From Amycolatopsis sp. 195334CR (GTDB taxonomy: Bacteria; Actinomycetota; Actinomycetes; Mycobacteriales; Pseudonocardiaceae), in assembly GCF_017309385.1 (NCBI RefSeq), contig NZ_JAFJMJ010000001.1, positions 2,790,001 to 2,854,000 on the forward strand: a stretch of DNA of 64,000 bases, read 5' to 3'. Both the position numbers and the translations under genes were made by a program. Positions 13,347-30,298 of this stretch are shown here, in pieces. The notes under the pieces are model-generated. The model was not told the origin of the DNA and made no database searches. It worked only from the letters and a program-made list of their open reading frames with translations. How positions within the stretch are numbered: position 1 is the stretch's first letter; every line of letters starts with the position of its first letter.

Positions 13347-13457
13347 ACCGGTTACGCTTCGTCGTCCGGTTGAGCGATTTTCGCCTTCGCCGCGTCCCGA
13401 TATCTCAAGCGCCGCCTCTTGCTCGACGACGAACATCAGGTGGCGGAGGTGAAAGCG

Positions 13458-14081
13458 GTGTCAAAGGACGGGATCGCAGTCCACGCCGAGGCCGCGGATC
13501 TGCCCGCGCTGCACGAGACGATGGCCTCCGTTTTCGCCGCCCAGGGCAACTGGGAACGCGCCTACCTGCACCTTCGCTCCGCGCTCGAGCGTGACGCGCT
13601 CACCGCGGGTTACAACCGCCGCTTCCTCGACCAGCAGCTGGCGCGGCTCGCCGACGGCCACCTGTCGCTCGCGATGGTCGACATCGACCTGTTCAAGCAC
13701 GTCAACGACACCTTCGGGCACCTCGTCGGCGACCGCGTGCTGCGGAGCGTGGCCGCGCTGCTGAAGCACGAACTGCCGCACGGCGCCTTCTGCGCGCGTT
13801 ACGGCGGTGAGGAGTTCGTGCTGGTCATGCCCGATTTGGGCGCCCGTGAGGCATTGGCGACCGTCGAGCGGGCACGGCTCCGCGTGGCGCGGTACGCGTG
13901 GCACCGCGTGCGGCCGGGCCTCGCCGTGACGGTCAGCGCGGGCCTGACGGCCAGGCCGGGACCCGCGGAGGAACGCCTCCGCGAAGCCGACGCCCTCCTT
14001 TACGCGGCCAAGCGCGCCGGCCGTAATGTGGTCGCCTATCCCGATTCGGAAATTCCCGGACAGATTCGCCACTCTGGGTAA
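13458..14081 (+). CDS. GGDEF-domain protein (probable diguanylate cyclase)
   Basis: 207 residues. A short helical N-terminus (about 1-55, TPR-like, with WERAYLHLRSALE) precedes a GGDEF domain with active-site motif YGGEEF and substrate segment VDIDLFKHVNDTFGHLVGD. The catalytic residues appear intact, so it probably makes cyclic-di-GMP. No RXXD inhibitory site is visible before the motif. I chose the GTG at 13458, which follows GGAGG, over the longer frame. No TTA codons or nearby phosphodiesterase were seen. Confidence 0.82.
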   Translation: MSKDGIAVHAEAADLPALHETMASVFAAQGNWERAYLHLRSALERDALTAGYNRRFLDQQLARLADGHLSLAMVDIDLFKHVNDTFGHLVGDRVLRSVAALLKHELPHGAFCARYGGEEFVLVMPDLGAREALATVERARLRVARYAWHRVRPGLAVTVSAGLTARPGPAEERLREADALLYAAKRAGRNVVAYPDSEIPGQIRHSG

Positions 14082-14316
14082 CTCGTGTTCGCGCGAATTC
14101 CCACTGCGGGTGATAACCGGTGGACTGGAACCTGTCGGTAACCCGCTGAACTCACACCGTGTGTAAAAACATCACGGGATGGTGTCGTCACGAACGGCGG
14201 GTATCCGTAGGATAACGAAAGCCATCCGGCTGGCGATGATCCTCCGGAGCCCGCCTGCCCCGAGTCCAGTCGAGGAACGTGGTCGACTCACCACCGTTGT
14301 GCTGAAGGGAGACTGA

Positions 14317-16678
14317 GTGCCTGACGATCACCTCCCCTCTGGCACCGGTCGTTCCCGCAGGTCGCGGCGCCGCTCGATGGACACCTACGGCGGCATCAGC
14401 GTCAACGAGGTGATGGCCAAGGCGACCGGCAAGTACCCGGTCCCGCCGGTGGCCGAGCCCGAACCCGAGCCGGAGCCGGAACCCGAGCCTCCGCCGCCAC
14501 CGGCGCCCGAGCCGCCGCCCCCATCGGCGCGGTCGGCGCGGTCGCGGTCGGCCTCGCCGGGGCACGCCAGCTCTTCGGGCCTTCCGGCGCCGGGGCACCC
14601 CAGTTCCTCGGGGCTTCCCGCCCCGGGGCACCCGAGTTCTTCCGGGCTTCCCGCGCCGGGGCACCCCAGTTCGTCGGGGCTTCCTGCGCCGGGTCGCTCC
14701 GGTTCTCCGGGGCACCCGAGTTCACCGGGGCTGCCCGCACCAGGACATCCGAGCTCGCCCGGCCTGCCCGCGCCTCGGCCGGTGCCGCCGCCGCGGAACA
14801 AGCATGAGGAGATGCCGCCTCGACGCCAGCCGGTGACCGGCTCGAACCCGGCGCCCGGTGGGGTGCCGCCGCGTCGGTCGCCCGGACGGCGTCGGCAGGC
14901 GGGGCCGCCGGCGAACGGCATGCCGCCGTCGGCACAGCGCCCCTCCCCCGCCGCGCGCCCCGCGTACGCCGCCCGCGCCGCCGAGGCCGTCGCGTCGTCA
15001 GCCGCCGCCACCGCCGCCCGTGGCGCCATCCATGCCGCCCGCGGCGAACGCGGCGCCACCCGCGATGAACGCGGCGAACGTGGCGCCGCCCGCGCACGCG
15101 GCGCCACCCGCGAAAGCCGCGCCGCCCGTGCCCCCGGCCGAGGCCAAGACCACGGTCACCCCACCGGTGGCCAACCCGCGCCCGCCGCAACCGCAAGCAC
15201 AGCCACAACCACAACAGCCGCCGCGGCCCAAGCCCGTGCGTCCCGAACGGCCGTCCCCCGAGGACCGGCTGATCATGACCGACCAGATGGAGCCGGTCGA
15301 CGACGCGACGATGTACCGCCGCAAGATCGACAACACCCTCGCCCGCTTCTCCGCCGCGCACGACGAGATGGCGGCCGAGGAGGCCAAGCGCAAGGAGCGC
15401 CTCACCCGCTTCACCGCCGCGCCGGTCAAGCTGATCGAGCAGACCCGCACGCGGCTGCAGCGCGTCGTGCACCCGAGCGAGAACGCGGCCAAACCGCGAC
15501 CGCACCCGCTCGGGCACCTGAACGCCGAAGAACCCGAGGAAGAGCCCGCGCCCCAGACCCGGCTGCAGGAGAAGAAGCAGCGCAACCAGGAGCGCACCGC
15601 CAAGGCGGGCCGGATCACCGCGATCGTGATGGCCTGCCTGATGTTCGTGCTCAGCGCCGCCGGGTGGGGCATGAAGACCTGGTTCAACAGCAAGTTCAAC
15701 CAGATCGCCGCGCTCGACGAGAACTCGGCGGACATCCAGGACGCGGCCGGGCAGCTCGGCGACGAGAACTTCCTCATCGCCGGTTCGGACACCCGCGCGG
15801 GCGCCGAGGCCGAGGAAGGCGTCGGCACCGCGGACTCGGTCGGCGGCGCCCGGTCGGACTCCCTGATGATCGCCCACATCCCGGCCGACCGGAAGCGCGC
15901 GATCGTCGTCGGCTTCCCGCGCGACCTGGAGGTGGACCGGCCGGACTGCAAGCGCTGGGACTCCGGCACCGGGCAGTACCTCGACGAGGTCGTGCCCGGC
16001 AAGAAGCGGGCCAAGTTGAACGAGGCCTACGCGATCGGCGGCCCGCAGTGCACCACCAAGCAGATCCAGCAGCTGACCGGGATGAAGATCAACCACTTCG
16101 TCGGCATCGACTTCCACGGCTTCAAGGACATGATCAACGTGGTCGGCGGGGTCCCGGTGCACATCGAGGAACCGGTGATCGACGAGGTGCTCGGGGTGGT
16201 CGTGCCCCAGGCGGGCGACCAGATCATCACCGGTGACCAGGCGCTGAACTTCGTCCGGGCGCGGAAGGTCAAGGGCGACGTCACCTCCGACTACGGCCGG
16301 ATCAAGCGCCAGCAGCTGGTGATCGGCTCGCTGCTGAAGAAGACCATGTCCAAGGAAGTCCTGTTCGACGGCGGCAAGCTGACCGGCTTCATCAACGCGT
16401 TCACCGCGGCCACCTTCGGCGACAACATCGGTGTGGACCAGATGCTCACGCTGGCGCAGTCGATGAAGGGGCTCAACCCGGACACGGTGAAGTTCATCAC
16501 CGTGCCGACCGTCGGTGACGCGAACGAGCGCGGCAACGAGGTGCTGTTGCAGAAGCAGTCGAAGGAACTGTTCGGCGCGCTGATCACCAACAGCCCGCTG
16601 CCCGACGAAAAACCGGCCGCGCCACCGCCGGCGAGCCAGGGCGGCACGCAGAAAGGCCAGGCCGAGCCGGGGAAGTAG
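14317..16678 (+). CDS. LytR-CpsA-Psr (LCP) cell-wall ligase with an internal frameshift
   Basis: LCP proteins attach polymers such as arabinogalactan or teichoic acid to peptidoglycan at the outer membrane face. The N-terminus in frame 1 (GTG 14317, after AAGGGAG) has the typical [15 protein letters not shown] and then [11 protein letters not shown] repeats. The catalytic part is in frame 2: a membrane helix ([18 protein letters not shown]) and an LCP domain with [30 protein letters not shown] and [13 protein letters not shown]. The frames must join near 14940-14950, in CCCCTCCCCC, where one extra base explains the shift. The joined product is about 786 residues. It may be a sequencing error, a real null mutation or slippage. 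Confidence 0.8.
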
Positions 16679-16702
16679 GCCCCGCCGGATTCGTTAGGCC
16701 GG

Positions 16703-16724
16703 GTTCACGCCCGGTTCACCCAGC
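16703..16724 (+). promoter_or_regulatory. PHO box upstream of phoU
   Basis: Two direct-repeat units, GTTCACGCCCG and GTTCACCCAGC, spaced exactly 11 nt, match the actinomycete PhoP box. A TATGGT -10 at 16752-16757 lies about 30 nt downstream and would start the transcript at or next to the phoU ATG (16765). phoU therefore appears to be a separate PhoP target. Confidence 0.75.
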
Positions 16725-16764
16725 GATGCGGCGTTCGCGTGGTCCTGGCCGTATGGTGAGGCCC

Positions 16765-17433
16765 ATGCGCGAGGCTTACCACGTCGAACTCGAACAACTG
16801 GCCGACAAGCTGGCGGCCATGTCCGTGCAGGTGGCGGACGCCATGGAGCGGGCCACCCAGGCCCTGCTCGACGTCGACCTCGCGGTCGCCGAGCAGGTGA
16901 TCAGCGACGACGCGAAGGTCGACGACGCCAGGGCGGCCTGCGAGGAGCAGGCGTACGCGCTGCTGGCGTTGCAGGCGCCGGTGGCCACCGACCTGCGGAC
17001 CGTGCTCGCCGCCATCCACGCGGCGGAAAGCCTGGAGCGCATGGGTGACCTGGCGCTGCACGTGGCCAAGGCGGCGCGGCGGCGGCACCCGGAACCGGTG
17101 CTGCCGGAGCAGGTGCGCGGCTACTTCGCCGAAATGGGCACGATCGCGGTGCGGCTGGCGCGGCAGGCGGAGCAGGTGATCAAGACCAAGGACGTGAGCG
17201 CGGCCAAGGAGCTGGAGGCCGACGACGACCAGGTCGACGACATCCACCGCCACCTGTTCACCGTGCTGATGGACCGCGAGTGGCCGCACGGCGTGGCCGC
17301 CGCGGTGGACGTCACCCTGCTGGGCCGGTTCTACGAGCGCTTCGCCGACCACGCGGTTTCGGTGGCGCGCCGGATGATCTTCGTGGTCACCGGCCGCATG
17401 CCCGGCTACGGCCCCGGCGACGACGAACTCTGA
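16765..17433 (+). CDS. phoU: Phosphate signalling regulator PhoU
   Basis: 222-residue all-helical protein that links the Pst transporter to the PhoR/PhoP system and lowers phosphate uptake in excess. It starts [19 protein letters not shown] and has two PhoU repeats, with metal-binding-type motifs in [15 protein letters not shown] and [13 protein letters not shown]. An ATG 39 nt earlier is in frame, but the chosen start matches the family. It has its own PHO box and lies about 7.7 kb from pstSCAB. Confidence 0.94.
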
Positions 17434-17602
17434 GCCACCGCACCCCTGCTTCCCGATTGCTGTTCCCGGCCGGTGACCCCTTGGCCGTACGGGGACCGGG
17501 ATCGGGGTAGGGGCCTCCGGCGCTGATAGGGGTGGGCGGTATCCCCGCCCGCCCCGATGCTGGTTCCGCGAGCGAGAGCCGTTCTCACCGGAGGGCCGCG
17601 GA

Positions 17603-19342
17603 ATGAGCGACAGGATCGACAACGCGCTGGACTGCTGGCGCCACCGCCTCGACTGGCGGCCGGTGTCGGGCACCCCGGCGCTGTCCGGCCGCTGGGCGAT
17701 CGTGGTGCCCGACCTCGACGACGGCGACCGGTTCGCCGCGGTGCTCCGGGAGTTCGGCGCCGAGCCGATCCTGGTGCCCGCCGGCGACCGCGGGGCGATG
17801 GCCGACTGCTTCCGCATCTTCCGCGAGCTGTCCGGGGTGGTCTCCCTCCTCGCGCTCGCCGAAACCGACGGCGACCTCCCGCCCGGCGTCGCGTCCACTG
17901 TGTACCTGATGCAGGCGCTCGGCGACGCGGGCCAGTCCGTACCGCTCTGGTGCGTCACCCGCGGCGCGATGGCCACCGGTGGCGACCCGGTGCAGGCGCT
18001 GCTCTGGGGCCTCGGCCGCGCCGCCGTGCTGGAGAACCCGCACCGCTGGGGCGGCATAGTCGACCTGCCCGCCGAGTTCGACGCGGACACCGCACGCCTG
18101 TTCGCCACCGCGTTGTCCCACCGCGGCGGGGACAACCGCTTCGCCATCGACCGCGGCAGGCTCTACGCGGCCCGCACCGTTCGCGAGCCCGGGCACGACT
18201 GGGTCCCGCGCGGCACCGTGCTCATCACCGGCGGCACCGGCGCGCTCGGCACCCGCGTCGCGCGGTGGGCGGCCGAACAGGGCGCGGAGCACCTCGTGCT
18301 GGTCAGCCGCCGCGGTCCGGCCGCGGCCGAGGCGGCGGAGCTGCGCAAGCTGCTGGCGGGCACCCGGGTCACCATGGCCGCCGCCGACGTCACCGACGAG
18401 GCTTCGCTCGCCAGGCTCAAGCAGGAGTGCGGCCCGATCGACGCGGTGGTGCACACCGCCGGGCACGACGCCGTCGGCCCGTTGCCCGAACTGCGCCCGG
18501 CCGACCTGCTCACCCGGGTCGTCGGCGCGCGCAACCTCGACCGCGTCTTCGCCGCCACCGAACTCGACGCCTTCGTCCTGATGTCCACATTGGACGGCGT
18601 GCAGGGACGGGCCGGCCAGGGCGCGGCGGCGGCGACGAGCGCCTACCTGGCCGCGCTCGCCGAACGCCGCCGCGCTCGCGGCGGCCGGGCGCACGCACTG
18701 GCCTACGACTGTCGCGGCACCGACGACCTGCGGATCTTCGTGTTCCCGGACCGGCTCGGCCAGCCTGGGCTGGCCGCGGACCTGTGCGATCGCTCGCCCG
18801 ACTTCGCCGCCACCTACGCCGAATGCGAGCAGCGGCTGGCCAGGTACACCGATCCCCGGCACGGCCAGGACTGGGCGACGATGGTCGCGCTCGCCGCGAT
18901 GTGGCGGGCCCACGGCGTGCGCCCGGCGCGGGTGCTCGGCCACGGCGTCGGCGAGATCGCGGCGGCGGTGGTCGGCGGCTCGCTCACCGTGGAGGAGGGC
19001 GCGAAGGCGGTCGCCGTGCGCTCGCAGGAGATGGTCGCGGTGTCCCTGCCGGAGAGCGAGGTGGCCGACCGGATCGCCCGCTGGCACGGCCGGATCGGCG
19101 TGCTCGCGGTCGACGGGCCCCAGTCGGTGGTGGTGTCCGGGGACCCGGCCGCGATCGACGAGCTGACCTTCCGCTTCCGCGCCGGTCGCATCACCGTGCG
19201 CCGCCTGGTCCGGGCGTCGTCGGGCGGTGCGGAGGCGTTCCAGCGCAACCTGTCCGCCTACCGCGAGCACGGGTACCGGCTGATCGAGATGACCGGCCCG
19301 CCGGTGCCCGCGCGCCCGGCGCGATCGCTCGAGGTGGGCTGA
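17603..19342 (+). CDS. Catalytically degenerate PKS protein A (KR + partial AT)
   Basis: 579 residues with modular polyketide synthase homology but no complete module. Residues about 1-195 resemble the KR structural subdomain; 203-375 are a KR with the NADP motif TGGTGALG. The catalytic Tyr of GQGNYAAANA is Ala (GQGAAAATSAY, 338-348), and the conserved Lys region reads VVGARNLD. Residues about 378-560 are a shortened AT: GQGAQW is replaced by DRLGQP, and the nucleophile motif GHSXGE reads GHGVGE (Ser to Gly448). There is no ACP. The frame is fully open, with GGAGG before the ATG. It overlaps gene B by one base. The homology is clear; a non-catalytic function is inferred. Confidence 0.72.
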   Translation: MSDRIDNALDCWRHRLDWRPVSGTPALSGRWAIVVPDLDDGDRFAAVLREFGAEPILVPAGDRGAMADCFRIFRELSGVVSLLALAETDGDLPPGVASTVYLMQALGDAGQSVPLWCVTRGAMATGGDPVQALLWGLGRAAVLENPHRWGGIVDLPAEFDADTARLFATALSHRGGDNRFAIDRGRLYAARTVREPGHDWVPRGTVLITGGTGALGTRVARWAAEQGAEHLVLVSRRGPAAAEAAELRKLLAGTRVTMAAADVTDEASLARLKQECGPIDAVVHTAGHDAVGPLPELRPADLLTRVVGARNLDRVFAATELDAFVLMSTLDGVQGRAGQGAAAATSAYLAALAERRRARGGRAHALAYDCRGTDDLRIFVFPDRLGQPGLAADLCDRSPDFAATYAECEQRLARYTDPRHGQDWATMVALAAMWRAHGVRPARVLGHGVGEIAAAVVGGSLTVEEGAKAVAVRSQEMVAVSLPESEVADRIARWHGRIGVLAVDGPQSVVVSGDPAAIDELTFRFRAGRITVRRLVRASSGGAEAFQRNLSAYREHGYRLIEMTGPPVPARPARSLEVG

Positions 19343-21828
19343 TGGTCTTCGACCTGGTCGAGCCGATCGCCGGGACCGGCGCGCTCCTGTGCTGCGGAGA
19401 CCTCCGCGAGGAAACCCACCCGTGGCTCGCGGGCAAGCCGTTGCCCGCCGAGCTGGTGACCGAACTGCTCGCGCTCGCCGGTGCGGAGGCGGGGTGCGGG
19501 CACGTGCGTGAACTACGCGTGGAAGCGGATCTCCTGCTGCCCGCGCGGTTCCAGGTGCGCGTCGGCGCGCTGGAGAACGGCATGCGCGCGGTCCACCTCT
19601 ACACGCGCTCCGGCGAGGACTGGACCCGGCACGCGACCGGCATCGTCGAACCCGCGGTGGCCACCGAACCCGCCGACGACGGTTGGCACCCGCGGCCACC
19701 GCTGCCCCGGGCGGCCGGACCGGAGCCGCGGGTGGTCCCGTTCACCACCACCGAGCAGGCCCGGGAACTGGCGCGCGGCGGGGAACGCCTGGTGTTCGCC
19801 GACGAGCACGAGGCCACCGCCGTGGTGCTGCCGGAGGTGCTCGGTTCGGCCACACCACCGCTGATCGTGCGCGCGGGCGTTGCGTATGCGTTGGACAGCA
19901 ACGAAAGCACGGACGACGAACCGATCGCGGTCATCGGGGTGAGCGGGCGCTTCCCCGGCGAGATCGGGCCGGTGCCCGAGGATCGCGGCTGGGATGTGGC
20001 GCCACACGGCGCTTTCCTGCGTGCGCCGGGCGATTTCGACGCGGCGTTCTTCGGGATGACCGGGGAACAGGCGCTGGTGGTCGATCCGCAACACCGGTTG
20101 CTGCTGGAAACCGCTTGGGAGGCCTTCGAAAACGCCGGGATCGACCCGGAACGGATGCGCGGCGAGAAGGTCGGGGTGTTCACCGGCGTGCACGGCAGGC
20201 ACTACGAATCGCTGGTGTGGGCGGCCTCCATGGACGCGCCGCCGATGCCCGCCGCGGTGCGCGTGGCGCAGGCGTTCGGCCTCGCCGGTCCGGCGGTGGA
20301 GACCGGTGAAGCGTGCCGGCGGGCCGTCGAATCGCTGCGCCGGGGCGAGTCGTCGATGGCGCTGGCGGGCTGGGCGAGCGTGCTGGCCACCCCGGACGCG
20401 GTCGCCGACGATCCGGCGGAAGGCGCCGGAATCCTGCTCCTGCAACGACTTTCCGAGGCCGAACGGCTCGGCCATCCGGTGCTGGCCACGGTGCCAGAGC
20501 GACCGGGCTCGGTACCGGAACTGCTCGAATCGGTGCGGCGGACGGTCCGGCCGGAACCCGCCGAGCCGATCGCCGACCTGCCGATGGCGTGGCCGCTGTC
20601 GGCGAAGTCCGAAGCCGCCTTGCGCGCGCGGGCCACCCAGCTACTGTCCTGTTTGGACACCGACGCGCCGGCGGACATCGGGCTCTCACTGACCGAGCGG
20701 ACCGAGTTCACCCAGCGGGCGGTGATCATCGGCGAGCACCCCGACGAGTTCCGGGAAGCGCTGACCGCACTCGCCGAAGGGCGCACCGCGCCGAACCTCG
20801 TACTCGGATCCGCCGCCGAAACCACCGCGCCGGTGCTCGTCTTCCCCGGCGGTGAACTGGACTGGACGAGCAACGAACTGCTGGAGCACCCGGTGTTCGC
20901 CGACCGGATCGCCGACTGCGAGCGGGCGCTGTCCCCGCACGTCGACTGGTCGCTGACCGAGTTGCTGCACAACGAACTGGTGCCGGACCGCGTGGACGTG
21001 GTGCTGCCGGTGCGGTGGGCGGTGCAGGTCGCGGTCGCGGCGCTGTGGGAGTCGTTCGGCGTGCGGCCGTCCGCGGTGCTCGGGCACGGCGACGGGGAGA
21101 TCGCCGCCGCCGTGGTCTGCGGTGCGTTGTCCCTCGAGGACGGTGCGAAGGTGGCCGCGCTGCGGGCGCGGGCGTTGCGGGGCATCGTCGGCCGCGGTGG
21201 CGTGGTCGCGGTTTCCCTGCCGGAGCACGAGGTGGTGGACCGGATCGGCTTCTGGCCGGGCCGGGTGGCCGTGGCCGCCATCGACTCGCCGGAGTCGGTG
21301 CTGGTCAGCGGCGACGCCGCGGCGCTGGACGAGCTGATGTACCGGTTCAAGGCGGACCGGATCCGGGTGCGGCGGCTGCCGGTCGGCCACGCCGCGCACT
21401 CGGCCCACGTGGAGGAGATCGAGCAGCTGGTCAAGGACCTGCTCGCCGGGATCACCCCGGCCGCGGCCGCGGTGCCGTTCTTCTCCACGGTCACCGGCGA
21501 CTGGTTCGACACCACCGAGCTGACCGCCGACTACTGGTACTGGAACCTCCGCCAGCCGGTGCTGTTCGCGCACGCACACAAGGCGCTCGCCGACCAGGGC
21601 TGCGTGTTCGCCGAGGCGGGCGATCCCGGTGGCCTGCGGCCGTTCCTCACCGCGGTGGCCGGCGCGCACCTGCGGGGTGCCGCGGTGGACTGGCGCGCCT
21701 GCTTCCCCGGTGCCCGCCGCGTCGCGCTGCCCACCTACCCCTTCCAGCGCGAGCGGTACTGGATCGACCTCACGCACTCCGGATCGCCAGCGTCTGCAGC
21801 TCGACCGGCAGGTCACACCGCCGCTTGA
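19342..21828 (+). CDS. Catalytically degenerate PKS protein B (DH-like + KS + AT)
   Basis: 828 residues. Residues 13-105 resemble a PKS dehydratase but THPWLAGKPLP lacks the catalytic His. Residues 192-382 are the front half of a ketosynthase (DPQHRLLLETAWEAFENAGI); the DTACSSS region is shortened to ETGEACRRA, and the later HGTGT and GHXXXAAG parts are absent. Residues 416-800 are a nearly full AT, but GQGAQW reads GGELDW and the nucleophile motif reads GHGDGE (Ser to Gly583); the AHS histidine and the C-terminal LPTYPFQRERYW remain. No ACP is present. It is translationally coupled to gene A. Its end overlaps the convergent LuxR gene by 59 nt. Confidence 0.72.
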   Translation: MVFDLVEPIAGTGALLCCGDLREETHPWLAGKPLPAELVTELLALAGAEAGCGHVRELRVEADLLLPARFQVRVGALENGMRAVHLYTRSGEDWTRHATGIVEPAVATEPADDGWHPRPPLPRAAGPEPRVVPFTTTEQARELARGGERLVFADEHEATAVVLPEVLGSATPPLIVRAGVAYALDSNESTDDEPIAVIGVSGRFPGEIGPVPEDRGWDVAPHGAFLRAPGDFDAAFFGMTGEQALVVDPQHRLLLETAWEAFENAGIDPERMRGEKVGVFTGVHGRHYESLVWAASMDAPPMPAAVRVAQAFGLAGPAVETGEACRRAVESLRRGESSMALAGWASVLATPDAVADDPAEGAGILLLQRLSEAERLGHPVLATVPERPGSVPELLESVRRTVRPEPAEPIADLPMAWPLSAKSEAALRARATQLLSCLDTDAPADIGLSLTERTEFTQRAVIIGEHPDEFREALTALAEGRTAPNLVLGSAAETTAPVLVFPGGELDWTSNELLEHPVFADRIADCERALSPHVDWSLTELLHNELVPDRVDVVLPVRWAVQVAVAALWESFGVRPSAVLGHGDGEIAAAVVCGALSLEDGAKVAALRARALRGIVGRGGVVAVSLPEHEVVDRIGFWPGRVAVAAIDSPESVLVSGDAAALDELMYRFKADRIRVRRLPVGHAAHSAHVEEIEQLVKDLLAGITPAAAAVPFFSTVTGDWFDTTELTADYWYWNLRQPVLFAHAHKALADQGCVFAEAGDPGGLRPFLTAVAGAHLRGAAVDWRACFPGARRVALPTYPFQRERYWIDLTHSGSPASAARPAGHTAA

Positions 21829-24226
21829 TGCCCAGTTTCCGGTACGTCCTGGTCAGGTGCTGCTCCACAGTGGACACCGTGATGTAGAGCTTGCCCGCGA
21901 TCTCCCGGTTCGAGCAGCCGCACACCGCGAGCGCGGCCACGCGGCTCTCCGACTCGCTGAGTTTTTCCAGTCCGCGCACGGTTTCCGCGGCCGGGCGCAC
22001 CATCGGCTTCGGCTTGACCTTCGGCACCTGCGGGCGCCGTTCTCCGGCCAGCAACTGCAATGCCTTGGCCCGTTCGAGCCGGTCACCGCCGGCTTCCAGC
22101 AGCTTGACCGCCTCGGCCACCAACTGCGGTCGCTGGCCGGGTTCGCTGGCCGCGGCCAGCACCCGCAGGGAGATCCCGCGCACCCGCGGCTGGTCGGGAC
22201 CGGCCAGCGCGAGCTGCGCGTCGACCAGTTTGCGGGCCTGCCCTCGGTTGCCCAGTTCGAGCCAGGCCTGGGCGGCGCCGGTCCGCCACGGCACCACCGA
22301 CGGCTGGTCCATCCCCCACTTGTGCATCAGCTCACCGCAGAACAGGAAGTCGGCGAGCGCGGCCTGGTGCCTGCCGATGGTCATGCTGTACTGCCCGCGC
22401 GCGTAGGCGTAGTGCAGGCCGAACCGGGTGTCGAACATGGCCTGCGGCACCGGCCGCTCGGCGATCTCGGCGGCCTCGTCCAGCCGCCCCATGCCGATCA
22501 GCGCCAGCAGCAGGTTGGCCAGCGGGAAACCGATGCCGACGCCCCAGCCGCGTTCGGACAGCACCCGCAGCGCTTCACTCGCCTCGCGGTGCGCGACGGT
22601 GAGTTCCCCTTGGCGCATCGCGATTTCCGCGCGGACGGCGGCCAGCAGCGCCTGCCCGGTGCGGCTGGTGGTGCGCAACCGGAGGTGGTGCAGCCGACCC
22701 CAGTGCGCGGCGGCGTCCAGCCTGCCCGCGTAGATCAGCGTGAGCAGCGCGCCGAACTCCTCCTGCGGGGAGATCTGGTCGCGCTCCCCGAACTGCGAGC
22801 GCTGCAGCAGGTGCTCGGCGCCCAGCACGGTCGGCTTCGGCGCGCCACCCGCCTGCCCGCCGGGCAGCAACTGGTCGAACCGGATCCGCCGCTTCAGCCC
22901 GGGATAGGTGGTGCTGAGCCAGAGTTCGGCCTGCGCCAGCTGGTGCGCGTCCCCGGCCAGACCGCGGATGGTGGCCAGTGCTTCCTCGTGCTTTCCCTGC
23001 CACAGCAGGTAACCGACGAGTTCGGTGGTGTCGCGGCCGGCGAGCCTGCCGTCGCGGGCGGCGGTCACCAGCGGTTCGAGGTGCCGGGCGGACTGCCCGG
23101 GGTCGAGCCGCCAGGTGATCCTCGCCAGCAGCGCGGCCAGGTCGAGCCGGTGCGCGGGATCGGTGGTGCAGGTGCGCGCGAGTTCCAGGTACCGGACGGC
23201 GTCGGCGGGGCGCTGGTCGCGCAACGCGGCGTCGGCCGCGTCGCCCAGCACGGCGGCCGCCCAGTCCGGGCGCAGGCGCGGGGCCCGCAGCAGGTGCCCG
23301 GCCACCACCTCCGGTGCCGCACCCGCGGTGTGGGTCAGCACGGCCGCGCGTTCGTGCAGGTCGGCGGCGGCCTCCGCGGAGAACGTGCCCAGTGCCGCGG
23401 CGGCGACGTCCGGGTGGGCCTGGTCGCCGGGGTTGAGCAGGCCGCTCGCCCGCAGCGCCAGCAGGTCGGCGTCGACCTCGCGGCCGAGCAGTTCGGCCAC
23501 GTCCTCGGCCGAACCGACCACGGCGATGCCGCCGAGCACCTCGACGGTGGACGGCGCCGCCCGGTGCAGGCAGCCGAGCAGCGCCTCGGTGAACCGGCCC
23601 TCGGTCAGCCCGCGCATCAGCTGGGGGTTGCCGCCGGTGAGCGGGAGGTCGTTCCCGGCGGGCAGCGGGTCCACCGGCAACGCGGTGAAGTGCGGCTGGC
23701 GCGAGAGTTCCGCGCGCACCGGCGGGTCGAGGGCCAGCGGACCGGCGCCTTCGGTGAGCACCACGGTCACCCGCTGCCCGCCGAGCCGCCGCACCAGGTA
23801 GAGCAGGCAGCTCATCGAGGGCGCGTCGCAGTACTGGGCGTCGTCGAGCAGGATCGCCAGCGGCCGCTCGGCTGCCAGCGCGAACAATGCGGCGCCGACC
23901 GCGCGTGACACCCGCAGCAGTTCGTTGTCGGCCACCACGCGGTCGGGATCGTGGTCGAGCGCCTTGGCGATCCGCTCGTCGGCGAGCGCGGACGCGGGGA
24001 GCAGCTGGGCGAGCGCGCCGAAGGGCAGGCCCTGCTCGGCACGGGCGCAGCCGGCCCGCAGCACGAGCGCGCCGGAGTCCTCGGCGAGGTCGGCGAACCG
24101 GGTCAGCAGCGCGGTCTTGCCGCAGGTGACGCCCCCGGTCAGCACCGTCGCGGAGCCGGTGCCGGACTCGGCGGCGGCCAGCCGCGCCTTGAGCACCGCG
24201 ACCTGCTCGTCCCGTGCGATCAGCAT
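21770..24226 (-). CDS. Large ATP-binding LuxR (LAL) transcriptional regulator
   Basis: 818 residues. An N-terminal AAA ATPase has Walker A GGVTCGKT (about 31-38) and Walker B LAILLDDAQ. A long TPR-like helical middle leads to a C-terminal LuxR HTH with LSESESRVAALAVCGCSNRE and ITVSTVEQHLTRTYRKLGI. LAL proteins are typical pathway-specific activators in antibiotic clusters. It faces the degenerate PKS pair and is divergent from the SARP gene, sharing the region that carries two ARE sites. The frame is intact and full length is slightly short for the family (usually 850-950). Confidence 0.87.
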   Translation of the reverse strand: MLIARDEQVAVLKARLAAAESGTGSATVLTGGVTCGKTALLTRFADLAEDSGALVLRAGCARAEQGLPFGALAQLLPASALADERIAKALDHDPDRVVADNELLRVSRAVGAALFALAAERPLAILLDDAQYCDAPSMSCLLYLVRRLGGQRVTVVLTEGAGPLALDPPVRAELSRQPHFTALPVDPLPAGNDLPLTGGNPQLMRGLTEGRFTEALLGCLHRAAPSTVEVLGGIAVVGSAEDVAELLGREVDADLLALRASGLLNPGDQAHPDVAAAALGTFSAEAAADLHERAAVLTHTAGAAPEVVAGHLLRAPRLRPDWAAAVLGDAADAALRDQRPADAVRYLELARTCTTDPAHRLDLAALLARITWRLDPGQSARHLEPLVTAARDGRLAGRDTTELVGYLLWQGKHEEALATIRGLAGDAHQLAQAELWLSTTYPGLKRRIRFDQLLPGGQAGGAPKPTVLGAEHLLQRSQFGERDQISPQEEFGALLTLIYAGRLDAAAHWGRLHHLRLRTTSRTGQALLAAVRAEIAMRQGELTVAHREASEALRVLSERGWGVGIGFPLANLLLALIGMGRLDEAAEIAERPVPQAMFDTRFGLHYAYARGQYSMTIGRHQAALADFLFCGELMHKWGMDQPSVVPWRTGAAQAWLELGNRGQARKLVDAQLALAGPDQPRVRGISLRVLAAASEPGQRPQLVAEAVKLLEAGGDRLERAKALQLLAGERRPQVPKVKPKPMVRPAAETVRGLEKLSESESRVAALAVCGCSNREIAGKLYITVSTVEQHLTRTYRKLGIKRRCDLPVELQTLAIRSA

Positions 24227-24547
24227 GATGTCCCCTTTGCGTCGTGTGCGGGGTTCGAGCGAAAGTTAGCCGAGAAAAAGGGGTCGATCCCGGGAATCGA
24301 GGTCGGCTCGAGTGGGATCCGACAAGCTGTCGAGGTGGGCGCGATGGCCAAGATCGGCAGCTTCCGGTCGTTTTGCCCGACTCCGCGCGGCTGTCTGCGT
24401 AAGGTGGGAGGGGTCGACCACTCGACGAAAAAACCGACCGACCGGTACCGAAACCGTTGACAAAACCGACCGCCCGGTTTTGAATTTTGGGTATCGGGCC
24501 GCTGGCAGGGGTGACCACCGGCTCGCCGACGAGCTGAGGGAGCTGTG
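24227..24547. promoter_or_regulatory. Divergent LAL/SARP intergenic region with two ARE sites
   Basis: 321-nt gene-free region. Two sites like the GBL-receptor ARE consensus (ANAWACNNACYNNNCGGTTTKTTT) lie at 24429-24452, where the left half matches fully, and at 24461-24484, whose core AAAACCG-N6-CGGTTTT is a perfect inverted repeat. They are 32 nt apart. A -35 TTGACA (24457-24462) and -10-like TTGAAT (24480-24485) overlap the second site, so a bound receptor would block the SARP promoter. I see nothing clear in 24227-24428. Confidence 0.7.
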
Positions 24548-25366
24548 ATGGACATCCGGGTGCTGGGTCCGCTTGAAGTCCAGTTTTGCGGCAGAACGGT
24601 CGCGCCGACGGCGGCCAAGGAACGCAAGCTGCTGGCCATGCTCACCGTGCACGCCGGAGAGCTCGTTCCCGACTCGGCGCTGTTCGAGGAGTTGTGGGGT
24701 GGCAAGATCCCCCGCAGCGCCCGGACCACCCTGCAGACCTACGTGCTCCACCTGCGGTCCATGATCGGTGCGGCGGGCGCGGGCGCCGAAGACGGCCGCA
24801 CCCGGGACCCGAAGGCGATCCTGGCGCGGGAGATAGGGGGCTATGTTCTCCGTGATGAGGGGTTCACGATCGACGTCAAGGAGTTCGACCGGCTCGCCGA
24901 GGCCGGGCACCGCGCTCGCGAGGCCGGTGACTTCGCCGGGGCGTCGGAGAAGTTCGGGCGCGCGCTGGCGCTCTGGCGCGGTCGCGCGCTGGCCGACGTG
25001 ATGCCAGGGGGGTTGCTCGAGGTCGAGGTGCACCGCCTGGAGGAGGCCAGGCTGTGCGTGCTCGACCGCCGGATCGACGCCGATCTCCGGCTCGGCAGGC
25101 ACCACGAACTGCTCGGTGAGCTCACCGCGCTGGTGGCCCGCAACCCCACGCACGAAGGACTGCACGGGCACCTCATGCTCGCGCTGCAGCGGGCCGGCCG
25201 ACGGGGCGACGCCATCGACGTCTACCTGCGGTTGCGCACCCGCCTGGTCGAGGGACTGGGCCTCGAGCCGTCCTTGACCCTGCGCCGACTGCACCGGTGC
25301 ATCCTCACCTCCGATCAGGAACCGACCCGGCCCGGGGACGCGCTCTTCCCCGCGCTCACCGCATGA
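24548..25366 (+). CDS. SARP-family transcriptional activator
   Basis: 272-residue Streptomyces antibiotic regulatory protein. An OmpR-type winged helix (about 1-95) with VLGPLEVQFCGRTVAPTAAK and SARTTLQTYVLHLR precedes a bacterial transcriptional activation domain (about 110-255) with FGRALALWRGRALADV. The ATG has GAGGGAG upstream. SARPs activate secondary-metabolite genes and are often the last step of GBL cascades; the two AREs in its promoter fit that. It lies 54 nt before a GBL-receptor-like gene. Confidence 0.9.
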   Translation: MDIRVLGPLEVQFCGRTVAPTAAKERKLLAMLTVHAGELVPDSALFEELWGGKIPRSARTTLQTYVLHLRSMIGAAGAGAEDGRTRDPKAILAREIGGYVLRDEGFTIDVKEFDRLAEAGHRAREAGDFAGASEKFGRALALWRGRALADVMPGGLLEVEVHRLEEARLCVLDRRIDADLRLGRHHELLGELTALVARNPTHEGLHGHLMLALQRAGRRGDAIDVYLRLRTRLVEGLGLEPSLTLRRLHRCILTSDQEPTRPGDALFPALTA

Positions 25367-25420: not shown

Positions 25421-26077
25421 GTGGCCAAGCAGCACCGGTCGGAGCAGACCAGGAACGAGATAGTGAGGTGTGCCGCCAGGCTCTTCGACCGTGACGGCTT
25501 CCCGACCGCCAGCATGTCCGAGATCAGCCAGGCGGCCGGGGTGACCAAGGGGGCGGTCTACTTCCACTTCGCGTCGAAGGACGAGCTCGTCGGCGCGGTG
25601 CAGGAACTCGGCTGCGTGATGCTGGAGTCCCACGCGGCCAAGCTCGCGTCCAACGAGAACTCCCCGCTGCAGACCGTGATCGACCTGACCCACACGCTCG
25701 CCGCCTGGCTGGACGCCAGCCCGGTGGTCCGCGCCTGCATGCGCACCGCCCGCGAGTGCGCCGACCGCGGCGCCCCGTTCAGCGACTTCTACCAGGCCTT
25801 CCTCAAGGCGATCAGCGACGCGCTCGCGCGCGCGGACGCGGCGGGCGAGCTCAAGCCGGGCGTGGCCCAGGACGCGGTGCTGACCCAGGTGGTCGCCGCC
25901 AGCGCCGGCCTCGAGGTGCTGTGGTGGGCGGGCACCCTGCCCCGGCCGCGCACGCTGGCGGTGACCAAGGTCTGGGAGGTGCTGCTGCCCGGCATCGCGG
26001 TGCCCGCGCGCACCAGCCGGCTGGAGCGCACCGGCAGCTCGGCCGCCGCGGCCCGGCCCCCGGTCAGCTTCGGCTGA
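25421..26077 (+). CDS. GBL-receptor-like TetR regulator (first copy)
   Basis: 218 residues. The N-terminal HTH has MSEISQAAGVTKGAVYFHFA, the form typical of ArpA/ScbR receptors. The C-terminal ligand domain has VLWWAGTLPRPRTLAVTKVW. The GTG follows GAGGAG. Because a second, more canonical copy lies next to afsA, this may be a pseudo-receptor of the ScbR2 type; that is inference. It ends with a 14-nt overlap against the convergent second copy and probably shares the SARP transcript. Confidence 0.83.
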   Translation: MAKQHRSEQTRNEIVRCAARLFDRDGFPTASMSEISQAAGVTKGAVYFHFASKDELVGAVQELGCVMLESHAAKLASNENSPLQTVIDLTHTLAAWLDASPVVRACMRTARECADRGAPFSDFYQAFLKAISDALARADAAGELKPGVAQDAVLTQVVAASAGLEVLWWAGTLPRPRTLAVTKVWEVLLPGIAVPARTSRLERTGSSAAAARPPVSFG

Positions 26078-26717
26078 CCCCGTTCGCCGGTTCGGCGACC
26101 TCCCCCAGCTCACTGCCCTCGGGGCGGAACTTGTGCAGCCGCCGCGCCGGCACGATGCCGGGCAGCGTGATCCGCCACATCATGGTCACCCGCTCGGTGA
26201 TGTCCTCGCGCTGGGTGAGCACCTCGGAGCTGATCTGCACCCCGGTGAACGAGGCGATGACGAAGGTGGCGATGTCCACCGGATCCAGTTCCGGGCGCAG
26301 ATCCCCTTGGCGCGCGGCGCTTTCCAGGCAGGTCTGCACCAGCCCGATCCAGTTCCGGTAGGCGTCCGGGGTGGGCGTGGAGAAGGTGCCCTGCTCGATC
26401 ACCAGCCGGATGCCCGCCCGCACGCGCGGGTTGTTCCGCAGGCTGATCGCCATGCCGTGGGACAGGTCGATCGCGGTCTGCAGGGTGACCAGGTCCGGGT
26501 CCTCCGGCGGGGTCCAGATGGTGAACTGCTCCGAGATGATCGCCTTGGCGATCTCCTCCTTCGAGGAGAAGTGGAAGTACAGCGCTCCCTTGGTGACGCC
26601 CGCGCCCGCGATGATGTCGGTCAGCGTGCCGCCCTGGAAACCTCGCTCGTCGAACACCGTCGCCGCCGCATCCAGGATGGCCGTTCGCGTGAGCTCGGCC
26701 CGTTCCTGCTTGGGCAC
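26064..26717 (-). CDS. GBL receptor (ScbR/ArpA-like TetR regulator)
   Basis: 217 residues beginning MPKQERAELTRTAILDAAA, with HTH GGTLTDIIAGAGVTKGALYF, close to the classical autoregulator receptors. The C-terminal domain includes RVRAGIRLVIEQGTF and SFTGVQISSEVLT, a family signature. Such proteins repress ARE-containing promoters until a gamma-butyrolactone binds. It is divergent from the afsA-type gene, with a perfect-consensus ARE between them, the usual receptor/synthase pair. An ARE-mediated loop controlling itself, afsA and the SARP is likely. Confidence 0.9.
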   Translation of the reverse strand: MPKQERAELTRTAILDAAATVFDERGFQGGTLTDIIAGAGVTKGALYFHFSSKEEIAKAIISEQFTIWTPPEDPDLVTLQTAIDLSHGMAISLRNNPRVRAGIRLVIEQGTFSTPTPDAYRNWIGLVQTCLESAARQGDLRPELDPVDIATFVIASFTGVQISSEVLTQREDITERVTMMWRITLPGIVPARRLHKFRPEGSELGEVAEPANGVSRS

Positions 26718-26898: not shown

Positions 26899-26939
26899 TC
26901 AAAACGGTCATACCGTGAGCTTCCACACAAGGAGTGCTG

Positions 26940-27917
26940 ATGACAGCGATGATGACCCGGCCGGCTGGGGCTGTGGTCACGGCCGCGCCGGAGTTCGGTA
27001 ACGCCGTGGTCTCGCAGCGGTCCGACGTCCTCTTCGACCAGACGATCCCGCGGGCGCTGGTGCACCGCGCGGCCGTCTCCGAGGTGTTCCTGACCGACCT
27101 GTGCACGCTGGGTGACACCGAGTTCCAGGTGGGTGCGCAGTGGCCCCGCGGCCACAGCTTCTTCAGCCTGCTGAGACCGGACTACCACGATCCGATGCTG
27201 ATGGCGGAGACGATCCGGCAGGCGGGGCTGCTCATCGCCCACGCCGAGTTCGGCGTCGCGCTGGACTGGAAGTTCATCGTCCACCGGCAGACCTTCTCGC
27301 TCGGTTCGGACGGACTGCGGCTGGGCGCGCGCCCCGCCGACATCGTGCTGGCGGTCACCTGCCACGACCTCAAGCGGCGCGGCAAGCGCGTGGCGGGCGG
27401 GCGCCTGGAGATCGGCTGCTACCGCGACGGCGAGCTCATCGGCTCCGGCGGCGCGGTGTGGAGTGCGGTGTCCACTTCGGCCTACCGGCGGTTGCGCGGG
27501 GAGCGCGCCGACGCGGTGGTCGAGGTCGAGCCGCCGGTGGGCGTCGCGCCGCTGACCGTCGGCCGCGACCGCGCCCGCGACGTCGCGCTGGCCCCCGGCG
27601 AGCGCGACCGCGAGTGGGTGCTGCGGGTGGACCAGGCCCACCCGGTGATGTTCGACCACCCGGTGGACCACGTGCCGGGCATGGTCACCATGGAAGCCGC
27701 CCGCCAGGCGGCGAAGCTGGTCGCCGGGCAGCCGGACGCGCTGCCGGTCGGCTGCGACTTCCACTTCGAGCACTACATCGAGCTGGACGCGCCGGTGCAG
27801 GTCAACGCCACCGAGGTGACCGCGGTCCGGTCGGGCGTGCGCTCGGTGGAGGTGGTGTTCGGCCAGGCCGGCCGCACCGCCGCGTTCGGCACCGTCGACC
27901 TGCTGGTGCACGGCTGA
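26940..27917 (+). CDS. AfsA-type gamma-butyrolactone synthase
   Basis: 325 residues with two AfsA hot-dog domains (about 35-165 and 185-315). Family residues are in FFSLLRPDYHDPMLMAETIR and HPVDHVPGMVTMEAARQA. AfsA joins a beta-ketoacyl chain to dihydroxyacetone phosphate in the first step of A-factor-like signal synthesis. The ATG follows AAGGAG. The ARE upstream makes it a probable receptor target, and the SDR gene 3 nt downstream is probably in the same operon. Confidence 0.92.
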   Translation: MTAMMTRPAGAVVTAAPEFGNAVVSQRSDVLFDQTIPRALVHRAAVSEVFLTDLCTLGDTEFQVGAQWPRGHSFFSLLRPDYHDPMLMAETIRQAGLLIAHAEFGVALDWKFIVHRQTFSLGSDGLRLGARPADIVLAVTCHDLKRRGKRVAGGRLEIGCYRDGELIGSGGAVWSAVSTSAYRRLRGERADAVVEVEPPVGVAPLTVGRDRARDVALAPGERDREWVLRVDQAHPVMFDHPVDHVPGMVTMEAARQAAKLVAGQPDALPVGCDFHFEHYIELDAPVQVNATEVTAVRSGVRSVEVVFGQAGRTAAFGTVDLLVHG

Positions 27918-27920
27918 GGC

Positions 27921-28934
27921 ATGGGAAGAGCCGCTGGGGGAACTGGGGGAAGACCGGTCCTGCTGACCGGGGCGACCGGATTCATCGGCACCGCCGTGTT
28001 CCGGGAACTGCACCGGGTGGGCTGGTTCGACTGGGGTCCACCGCTGGTGGTGCTCACCCGTTCTCCGCCGGACTGGCTGGTCGAGTCCGGGGTCGAGGTG
28101 ATCAAGGGTGACCTGTCCGAACCCGGGGAGCTGCGCGGGATCGCGAACGGGGTCTCGACGATCATCCACATCGCCGCGCAGATCGGTGGTGACGCGGAGC
28201 TGTGCCGCCGGGTCAACCGGGACGGCACGAAATTCCTGCTGGGGGAAGCCGAGCAGGCCGGAACCCAGCGGTTCCTGTACATGAGCACGACGGCGGTCTA
28301 CGGGCACGGGCCGCACCGCGGGATCAGCGAGTCGCTGCTGGCGCCGGAACCGGTGTCGGCGACCAGTCTGAGCCGCGCGCAGGCGGAGCGGGAGGTGCGG
28401 CGGTTCGGCGGCACCGTGCTCCGGCCGCACCTGGTGTACGGGCCGGGTGACACGTGGTTCGTGCCCGCGTTGTGCCGGTTGGTCAGGGCGGTGCCTGCGT
28501 GGATCGAGCGCGGTGCCGCCCGCACCAGCGTGATCGAGGTGAACGACCTGGCCGCGCTGGTGGTGCGGTTGATGGGGTTGTCGTGGGGGAAGAGCCGGGG
28601 GGCGGTGTTCCACGCGAACGATCCCCGGCCGGTGCGGATGCGGGAGGTGATCGGAACGGTGTGCCGCGAGCTGGGCGTGCGCCCGCCGTCGCGGAACCTG
28701 GGGTTCGAGGCGCACCGGGAGCGCACGAGGAGGGTGCTGCCCGGGTTGACCGACCACCAGTTCGCGTTGCTGGCGGAGGACCACTGGTACGAAAGCGACC
28801 GGCTCTGGCGACGTGCCGACCTGACCCCGGGCGGCGACTTCGGCGAGAAGTTCGCGCGCTCCGCCGAGTGGTACCGGGAGCACATTTCGGCGGACGCCAC
28901 GGATCCGGTGGACATCGGCTACTCGGAGACGTGA
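27921..28934 (+). CDS. NAD(P)-dependent epimerase/dehydratase-type SDR of the GBL operon
   Basis: 337-residue extended SDR. The nucleotide motif is GATGFIG near residue 17; the Ser/Thr active region is LYMSTTAVYG. The usual YXXXK is not seen at the expected place: the aligned stretch is TSLSRAQAE, with no Tyr and Arg for Lys. Such SDRs accompany afsA genes and probably reduce or modify a GBL intermediate. It starts 3 nt after afsA. Either it uses unusual catalysis or it is non-catalytic. Confidence 0.78.
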   Translation: MGRAAGGTGGRPVLLTGATGFIGTAVFRELHRVGWFDWGPPLVVLTRSPPDWLVESGVEVIKGDLSEPGELRGIANGVSTIIHIAAQIGGDAELCRRVNRDGTKFLLGEAEQAGTQRFLYMSTTAVYGHGPHRGISESLLAPEPVSATSLSRAQAEREVRRFGGTVLRPHLVYGPGDTWFVPALCRLVRAVPAWIERGAARTSVIEVNDLAALVVRLMGLSWGKSRGAVFHANDPRPVRMREVIGTVCRELGVRPPSRNLGFEAHRERTRRVLPGLTDHQFALLAEDHWYESDRLWRRADLTPGGDFGEKFARSAEWYREHISADATDPVDIGYSET

Positions 28935-28937
28935 GCG

Positions 28938-29354
28938 TCAGCTCGCCATCGCGTCCAGGTCGGCCAGGTCCTTGGGACGCGCCAGCAATCGTTTGTAGGC
29001 AAGCACTTCGCTCAGCGCGGCGAAGCGCACGCCCGCGACGGTCTCCCCTTCGTCGATCAACCGGTCGACGTCCCAGTCGGGGGTGAGCCACGACCGGAAG
29101 AACTGGATGCGCCCGTTCCAGAACTGCACGCAGGGGTCACCGGTGATGGCGCCGAGTGCGGGCGTGCCCGACTCGACGGCCCGCGTCCACGCGGCCCCAC
29201 GGGCGACCACATCGAGATCCTGGATGTTCCGGCGAATCCCGTACGCGAGCAGCGGTCCGCTGCCGAAGACGACGAAGTCGGCGGGGTCGAACCCCAGTGC
29301 TTTCAGCCGCCGGATCAGCGGGTGCCGGGCGACCGCCCGTGCCGCCGCGGTCAT
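28938..29354 (-). CDS. Nucleotidyltransferase-like hypothetical protein
   Basis: 138 residues. The segment VFGSGPLLAYGIRRNIQDLD resembles the GS...D-X-D nucleotidyltransferase core, and the C-terminus (KRLLARPKDLADLDAM) resembles MNT-fold proteins that act on nucleotides or as antitoxins. The start overlaps the stop of the upstream 74-aa gene (ATGA). A longer in-frame reading exists but its N-terminal part is an out-of-frame shadow. The function is unknown. Confidence 0.65.
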   Translation of the reverse strand: MTAAARAVARHPLIRRLKALGFDPADFVVFGSGPLLAYGIRRNIQDLDVVARGAAWTRAVESGTPALGAITGDPCVQFWNGRIQFFRSWLTPDWDVDRLIDEGETVAGVRFAALSEVLAYKRLLARPKDLADLDAMAS

Positions 29355-29575
29355 TCGCCCGGCCGCTCGAGCCGGCCGAACGCCTGGATGATCTTCGGCC
29401 GTTCCTCCGGGCTGGCGCCGTCGATGGCCCGGAACAGCCGGTCGTTGCGCAGCCGCTCGCTCAGCACCTTCGTCCGGTGGGTCAGCCAGTGGCGGGCGAT
29501 CGACATCGCCGCCAGCGCGACGATCGCGAGCGCGGCGATGATCCAGTTCTGGCTGGTGAACAACTGGACCGGCAT
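29351..29575 (-). CDS. Small membrane protein (74 aa)
   Basis: One N-terminal membrane helix (WIIAALAIVALAAMSIAR), then a basic-acidic tail with RLRNDRLFRAIDGASPEERP. No family recognised. It sits between the Crp-type regulator (9 nt upstream) and the nucleotidyltransferase-like gene (4-nt overlap), suggesting one transcript. Confidence 0.65.
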   Translation of the reverse strand: MPVQLFTSQNWIIAALAIVALAAMSIARHWLTHRTKVLSERLRNDRLFRAIDGASPEERPKIIQAFGRLERPGE

Positions 29576-29584
29576 GGCGCGTCC

Positions 29585-30262
29585 TCAGCTCGCGGCCGTG
29601 CGGTGGCCGTCGGCGATTTCGCGCAGCTTCACCGGATCCCGCAGCAGCAGGGTCTGCCTGCCGGTCCCGAGCAGCCCGGCGGTCTTGAAGTTCCGGACGA
29701 TCTTCTTCACCGAGTCCAGGGAGGCGCCGGTGAGGTTGGCCAGGTCCTGCTGGCTGAACCGGAGCCCGACCCCGGTCGGGGACGGCGTGCCGATCCCGCT
29801 GTCGGCCAGTTCGATGAGCGACTTCGCCAGGCGCTGTTCGATGGCCAGCTCCGATTCGGCGATCTTGCGCGTGGCCTGTTCGACCCGCTCGAGCTGGCTG
29901 GCCAGCTGGGCGTGCATGGCGCGCGGGTGCTCGTAGAGGAAGTTCAGCCACGCACCGGCGGGCAGGTGGAGCACCTCGACCTCGTCGAGGGCGACCACGC
30001 TCGCCGACCGCGGCATCCGGCGGATCGCGGCCATCTCGCCGACCATCTCGCCCGCGTGGCGGATGGCGACGATCCTCGGCGGCTGGCCGACCACGATCTT
30101 GACGTGGCCCTTGCGGATCAGCAGCGCGAAGTCGGTCTCCTCGCCCTCGCTGATGAAGACGTGGCCCGCCTCGCGGTGCAGGGTCTGCCCCAGGGTTTCC
30201 AAGGTGGCGAGCTCGTCCTCGGTGAGGAGGACACTGCTGTTCTCGTACAGGGCCTCAGCCAT
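29585..30262 (-). CDS. Crp/Fnr-family transcriptional regulator
   Basis: 225 residues. A cyclic-nucleotide-binding-like beta-roll (about 15-130) has GHVFISEGEETDFALLIRKG and HAGEMVGEMAAI. A C-terminal HTH (about 165-210) has FSQQDLANLTGASLDSVKKI. No Cys cluster for an Fe-S centre is visible, so it is not a classical Fnr. The ATG at 30262 is preferred over a TTG 36 nt earlier, which would place the palindrome inside the gene. The perfect palindrome before it suggests autoregulation. Confidence 0.85.
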   Translation of the reverse strand: MAEALYENSSVLLTEDELATLETLGQTLHREAGHVFISEGEETDFALLIRKGHVKIVVGQPPRIVAIRHAGEMVGEMAAIRRMPRSASVVALDEVEVLHLPAGAWLNFLYEHPRAMHAQLASQLERVEQATRKIAESELAIEQRLAKSLIELADSGIGTPSPTGVGLRFSQQDLANLTGASLDSVKKIVRNFKTAGLLGTGRQTLLLRDPVKLREIADGHRTAAS

Positions 30263-30270
30263 ACCTCTGA

Positions 30271-30284: not shown

Positions 30285-30298
30285 CCAGCTGCGGTCAA

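Follow-up and report, generated by a model that had tools for sequence, protein, structure and literature searches.

Orthologous, catalytically stripped polyketide synthase proteins kept under purifying selection in a gamma-butyrolactone island of Amycolatopsis

We found that two adjacent genes, ORF1 and ORF2, in a 64,000-nucleotide stretch of an Amycolatopsis genome (hereafter the window, i.e., the whole of the DNA that was analysed) encode rearranged, truncated type I polyketide synthase (PKS) proteins without an ACP. As judged from codon and protein comparisons, the pair is orthologous in four genomes, has lost most of its catalytic residues and was later held by purifying selection, with the coupling of the two genes and their neighbours conserved. 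The explanation that we favour, and to which we give about an even chance, is that the two proteins are coupled pseudoenzymes kept for a non-catalytic function, which would serve the surrounding gamma-butyrolactone (GBL)/LAL/SARP regulatory island, most likely by binding.

The coordinates, frames and one-base overlap of ORF1 and ORF2 in the original prediction were correct (Table 1), and the overlap reads TGATG. The domain homologies proposed there, KR and AT in ORF1 and DH, KS and AT in ORF2, also held. A Pfam scan recognised KR and AT in ORF1, the AT being partial (profile positions 68-182 of 319), and the N-terminal half of KS and an AT in ORF2, whereas the DH-like N-terminus of ORF2 is visible only through alignment to PKS. 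The same scan gave no PF00550 match in either protein, in agreement with the claimed absence of an ACP, and found no docking-domain families in the pair.

Table 1. Window coordinates of the gene pair, its domains and the surrounding island
Feature	Position	Strand	Remarks
TAGGGG-N13-TAGGGG direct repeat	17508..17532	+	5' of ORF1; putative operator or promoter element
ORF1 pseudo-PKS protein	17603..19342	+	579 aa; structural KR subdomain, KR and truncated AT
KR domain of ORF1, aa 204-368	18212..18706	+	Rossmann motif retained, catalytic tetrad replaced
AT fragment of ORF1, aa 376-540	18728..19222	+	nucleophile position Gly448; C-terminal part absent
ORF2 pseudo-PKS protein	19342..21828	+	828 aa; DH-like region, KS N-half, KS-AT linker, AT and post-AT linker
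DH-like fragment of ORF2, aa 11-110	19372..19671	+	active His position is Lys32; 13 alignments
KS fragment of ORF2, aa 191-390	19912..20511	+	Cys325 present, C-terminal half gone
AT domain of ORF2, aa 496-757	20827..21612	+	nucleophile position Gly583; Arg608 and His686 retained
LAL-type (AAA and LuxR/GerE) regulator	21770..24226	-	convergent with ORF2, 59 bp overlap
ARE-like site 1, candidate GBL-receptor operator	24432..24447	+	1 mismatch to pattern; identical in 4/4 genomes
ARE-like site 2	24464..24479	+	exact pattern match; identical in 4/4 genomes
SARP (BTAD) regulator	24545..25366	+	member of the island
ScbR-family TetR regulator	25421..26077	+	NCBIfam NF041196, 174.1 bits, cut-off 150
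Second ScbR-family TetR regulator	26064..26717	-	NCBIfam NF041196, 216.3 bits, cut-off 150
ScbA/AfsA-type GBL synthase	26934..27917	+	NCBIfam NF041195, 332.8 bits, cut-off 200; Pfam AfsA
NAD-dependent epimerase/reductase	27921..28934	+	ends block common to all four genomes

The catalytic residues of KR, AT, DH and KS domains are well established, and we compared these positions with relatives in local alignments (150 for KR, 75 for the AT of ORF1, 92 for the AT of ORF2, 47 for KS and 13 for DH). A functional PKS ketoreductase carries the tetrad Lys-Ser-Tyr-Asn. In ORF1, whose KR positions align gaplessly to EryKR1, the 150 alignments place Arg305, Thr329, Ala342 and Ser346 at these positions; besides the change of Tyr to Ala that had been noticed originally, the other three residues are replaced too. 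The nucleophile of the AT motif GHSxG is replaced by Gly448 in ORF1 and by Gly583 in ORF2, as had been proposed, against Ser in all relatives aligned at that position (75/75 and 87/87, respectively), and the AT oxyanion Gln is replaced by Arg384 and Gly504. The lost DH His was confirmed as well: this residue, present in 92% of the 13 alignments, corresponds to Lys32 of ORF2. For KS, Pfam and the alignments agree with the shortening and the deleted second half that were originally described, with the refinement that Cys325 is still there; however, the motif around it is altered, the residues that follow it are deleted, and the half bearing both His of the Cys-His-His set of a functional PKS is missing. 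Most catalytic residues are gone, though not every one, as KS Cys325 and AT His686 are kept.

In the KR, the loss of residues is selective for the catalytic tetrad. There are 47 positions conserved in at least 90% of relatives, of which seven are changed in ORF1, three of them in the tetrad. The tetrad Lys falls slightly below this cut-off (134 of 150 alignments) and was added by hand to the enrichment test, in which 4/4 tetrad positions versus 4/44 other conserved positions are changed (Fisher p=3.6e-4). All six ORF1 rows of the orthologue alignment retain the Rossmann motif (T209-G216, position 211 being G or A), R236, D262, H284-G287 and AT Arg473, and all four ORF2 rows share Cys325, Arg608 and His686. 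The counterparts of the Rossmann motif, R236, D262, H284-G287 and the AT Arg bind NADP or carboxylate in normal enzymes.

AlphaFold2 models of ORF1 and ORF2 both have a mean pLDDT of 77; it should be noted that the input alignments held functional PKS rows, which favours PKS folds. In ORF1, blocks of 10 residues score 72-98 over residues 11-370 and 33-75 beyond; the AT fragment is modelled with low confidence and may not fold alone. In ORF2, the AT scores 82-98, the KS fragment 52-91 and the DH-like part 56-74, and residues 107-189 lie mostly below 50. Foldseek matched ORF1 to PKS KR structures (3mjv and others; TM 0.56 by query) and ORF2 to KS-AT didomains (2hg4; TM 0.64). The predicted structures agree with PKS folds being kept, despite the residue loss, in the KR and in the shortened KS with its AT.

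The original prediction proposed looking for orthologues with the same substitutions. Three of the other 79 genomes in the genus carry full-length ORF2 orthologues without internal stops (G054, 92% identity; G003, 85%; G027, 81%); the next listed matches in the genus are ordinary PKS at about 50%. In a family survey with three candidates scored per genome, ORF1 was detected at E<=1e-100 in 4/390 genomes (46 genera), and all four belong to one genus. When a protein database of 5.8 billion sequences was searched, the closest proteins among the ~8000 candidates scored per search belonged to clusters named A. lurida, A. albispora, A. magusensis and Saccharothrix sp. AJ9571, and the next ORF1 relative among these candidates had 46% identity over 63%. 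A contig-database search, in which records of very near genomes may be absent, returned 10 loci at 40-44% and no orthologue. Another cut-down PKS was seen in Streptomyces sp. NBC_01485 (P0233, 896 aa), consisting of a KS fragment (profile positions 90-204 of 252), an AT and an ACP; its AT motif is GASLGE, with His replaced and Ser kept, and it is possibly an independent pseudo-PKS.

The orthologue rows, six for ORF1 and four for ORF2, agree throughout in the KR tetrad changes, the two AT Gly, Lys32 and Gly504, and position 384 varies among Arg, Val and Glu but is never Gln. The frames are open throughout, all length differences are in-frame, and both the TGATG overlap and the neighbouring genes recur in 4/4 genomes. 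Because the catalytic changes are common to all orthologues, the loss of catalysis is most simply placed before the four lineages diverged, and constraint therefore acts on the dead form.

We estimated this constraint by maximum likelihood under the GY94 M0 F3x4 codon model, using DNA from four genomes only, which are close relatives; the topology (window, G054 | G003, G027) was assumed, and gap columns were dropped. The estimate of omega was 0.081 for ORF1 (579 codons; bootstrap 0.063-0.094) and 0.136 for ORF2 (827 codons; bootstrap 0.116-0.160), with 40 resamplings each, and 2dlnL against omega=1 was 589 and 616, respectively. The dN/dS check suggested with the original prediction thus gave 0.08 and 0.14, far below 1. 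Per domain, omega was 0.06-0.17 apart from the ORF2 tail (aa 758-828), which had an omega of 0.53 and a 2dlnL of only 4.5. The NG86 dN/dS of the pair (0.17-0.32) is above the codon-model values, but still below 1. The positive control was a modular PKS that is present in all four genomes and appears to work, with open frames and four GHSxGE motifs counted in each genome; its omega was 0.074 over 5550 codons and 0.056-0.089 in six 800-codon blocks. Therefore, ORF1 is held approximately like the control PKS, whereas ORF2, with an omega ~1.8 times as high, is held nearly twice as loosely. The neighbouring genes gave 0.040 (PhoU-like), 0.074 (LAL), 0.043 (SARP), 0.041 and 0.045 (TetR), 0.058 (AfsA) and 0.102 (epimerase). 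Within this set of genomes, the codon data show purifying selection on the pair after catalytic loss.

The island that holds the pair spans ~11.4 kb and includes the LAL, SARP, two ScbR-like receptors, ScbA and the reductase; the synthase of the ScbA/BarX family and the receptors of the ScbR family score above their family cut-offs. In all three relatives, the stretch of similar DNA starts with the PhoU-like gene, includes the pair and reaches 28.94 kb; it is briefly interrupted 5' of ORF1 in two of them and extends to about 30.0 kb in G054. Orthologues of ScbA (88-96%) and LAL (88-95%) are restricted to four of the 80 genomes of the genus, the next-best matches being 52% and 44%, respectively, and these are the same four that carry ORF2. 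The suggestion of a retained use linked to the GBL locus is thereby upheld with regard to retention and linkage, and the non-catalytic role would most likely be exercised within the island. The LAL carries AAA and GerE domains, and its convergent arrangement with ORF2 is found in 4/4 genomes, with an overlap of 59-86 bp. In Streptomyces bingchenggensis, LAL-family regulators are among the putative targets of a GBL-type receptor (PMC5974925).

Two ARE-like sites, one exact and one with a single mismatch, lie between the LAL and SARP genes and are candidate operators. At three mismatches, 19 ARE-like sites were found window-wide versus a mean of 11.9, and 7 of 100 shuffles reach 19, so that the count exceeds chance only slightly, but the exact and the one-mismatch site of the window both fall in this intergenic region. 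No ARE was found directly 5' of ORF1, and one 3-mismatch match inside the preceding gene is at chance level. The TAGGGG repeat 5' of ORF1 is present in 4/4 genomes (spacing 19/19/18/19). TAGGGG-N13-TAGGGG has a single exact site genome-wide, versus four for the reversed control pattern, and with one genomic copy only, its interpretation as a genome-wide regulon site was ruled out.

The two genes preceding the island are presumably PhoU and LytR genes, names that were assigned by eye, as was that of Crp. Sixteen other sampled genomes had neither island genes nor Dus within about 12 kb downstream of PhoU. In three of four island-free stretches (G024, G060 and G009; G039 ends short), the LytR-PhoU segment, window 13360-17430, is inverted on the same side of Dus; therefore, the island sits at a rearrangement joint beside Dus. 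The interval between the island and Dus, window 28938-30298, holds the Crp-like gene and one further ORF; it is largely present in G054, but G003 and G027 lack it and have the island almost adjoining Dus. After the PhoU-like gene, a long hairpin followed by T residues was seen by eye in G054 and G027 (L025 11952-12209; L027 7176-7457); the window and G003 showed none at the corresponding position.

A ScbA homologue at 46-52% is present in 18 other genomes of the genus, and we examined 10 of these sister loci. In 10/10, a reductase, ScbA, TetR and SARP block is followed by a PKS end, which begins about 3 kb past SARP in the two loci measured; this AT-DH-KR-ACP end is intact, as GHSxGE, KR Tyr-Asn, DH His and ACP Ser motifs are kept in all ten. 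The ScbA-SARP block and the PKS probably form a common GBL-controlled polyketide cluster. Both TetR queries fall on one single gene in 5/10 sister loci, and no LAL match was found in the 10 loci at 1e-8. Direct descent of the pair from this PKS was considered and rejected. Identity to ORF1 and ORF2 is only 31-42% in the best segments (tblastn). By domain, the sister PKS ranks 26th of 76 (DH), 130th of 201 (KR, best identity 48.6%), 140th of 222 (AT of ORF1) and 190th of 247 (AT of ORF2), in a set that included a few orthologue loci (L078-L081), which shifted the AT ranks slightly; no KS match of the sister PKS was found in this comparison set. With other PKSs, identity rises to 52-58% for AT and KR, but only to about 40-45% for KS and DH. 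Since closer PKS matches exist elsewhere, the common neighbourhood is no proof of a common parent.

The intact PKS genes beside the sister GBL loci, the rearranged and truncated domains and the faster evolution of ORF2 than of the control PKS (0.136 vs 0.074) could all be expected if the pair were the recent, decaying leftover of a PKS cluster in which stops have yet to accumulate. This explanation, one of the two originally offered, is very improbable: identical changes are present in all orthologues, neutrality is strongly rejected for both genes, the frames are open throughout with in-frame length differences, and the coupling is conserved. For the present sample, we consider it ruled out by the intact orthologues with the same substitutions and by dN/dS far below 1. 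The original argument from openness stood as an observation, as the frames of about 1,400 codons are indeed open, but it carries little weight because the DNA is GC-rich and a 704-aa antisense ORF is also open across the same region; the codon-level test carries the weight instead. This antisense ORF raises the alternative that an antisense gene, an RNA or regulatory DNA, rather than the two proteins, is the target of selection, and the antisense frame in codon phase with the sense frame does give an omega of 0.13 and 0.21. These values are explained by the third positions that it has in common with the sense frame. The sense frame has the lower omega and bears the PKS homology, whereas the +1, +2 and two remaining antisense frames have omega >1.5, and such a target has the smallest probability of all the alternatives that we weighed.

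The main rival is a scaffold or decoy function, in which the pair docks onto, or titrates, ACPs or PKS subunits of an active PKS or FAS with no link to transcription control; we hold it to be possible, yet on the unlikely side. The predicted PKS folds, with the KS-AT and post-AT linkers kept, speak for it, and a dead KS retained beside an AT is described for PfaB of a related megasynthase (PMC12895367). The genome also has many KS domains elsewhere, with 55 PF00109 matches, not all of them PKS. Conversely, the pair contains neither an ACP nor, by Pfam scan, a docking-domain family, and GBL and regulator genes lie in the block that the four genomes have in common. That all four ORF2 rows have Cys325, Arg608 and His686 could instead reflect an unusual catalysis that persists, e.g., hydrolysis or transfer via AT His686 and Arg608 or via KS Cys325. 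We consider this improbable, because neither AT nucleophile survives and the pair also lacks the oxyanion Gln, all four KR tetrad residues, the DH His and the part of KS that bears both His.

Under the favoured explanation, that of pseudoenzymes retained for a non-catalytic role in the island, the ancestor would have been a type I PKS that underwent shortening and rearrangement of its modules and lost catalysis, after which the proteins were retained. ORF1 and ORF2 would act together in serving the GBL/LAL/SARP island. The KR fold, with its NADP-binding motif kept, may bind a cofactor, acyl-CoA or a protein partner without turnover, and the AT fold, in which the substrate Arg (in ORF2 also His) is kept and the nucleophile removed, may bind likewise. 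The ligand-bound or partner-bound pair would then tune a regulator. The first candidate is the LAL, because of its AAA and GerE domains, its convergence with ORF2 and its common distribution; from these domains, we take it to be a MalT-type ATPase. As the NADP-binding motif and the AT arginine are conserved, ligand sensing by the pair is plausible. A more specific version, a PKS turned sensor in which the dead KR and AT domains would have NADPH and acyl-CoA as ligands (alternatively a polyketide-like compound) and the pair would gate the LAL, is itself unlikely; if true, the supply of polyketide precursors would license GBL signalling. It is well known that working PKSs can contain dead domains, but a PKS relic of two genes that is stripped of most catalytic residues, under strong selection (for ORF1 about that of a working PKS) and linked to a quorum-type signalling island would represent a new way in which biosynthetic machinery takes on a regulatory role. 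The pair also warns against labelling such genes as PKS or as pseudogenes.

No comparable dead-PKS pair, nor such GBL loci, were recognised in searches of open-licence literature; several known systems resemble the pair in part. The PfaB protein of PUFA synthases retains a dead, shortened KS without the full catalytic triad beside an AT (PMC12895367), and ORF2 likewise has a shortened KS adjoining an AT; however, the AT of PfaB is active, whereas that of ORF2, with Gly583, is predicted to be dead, and here ORF2 is coupled to another dead protein in a regulatory locus. The enzyme-like proteins MalY and Aes inhibit the STAND activator MalT through direct binding (PMC10427625); the likeness to our pair is an analogy only, namely that a protein with an enzyme fold binds an ATPase activator and thereby controls it. 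In contrast to the pair, MalY and Aes are real enzymes. Their folds also differ from those of ORF1 and ORF2. With modular type I PKS, the likeness is in sequence and in predicted fold, ORF2 resembling the KS-AT of DEBS module 5 (2hg4) and ORF1 resembling PKS ketoreductases such as DEBS KR1, but the pair consists of two short, rearranged proteins without an ACP or an intact KS, and with the AT nucleophiles and the KR tetrad replaced. Finally, the island resembles the Streptomyces ScbA/ScbR systems in its ScbA, two ScbR-family proteins, SARP and candidate ARE-like sites, and differs from them in that it also houses the conserved pair of dead PKS proteins together with the LAL gene convergent with ORF2.
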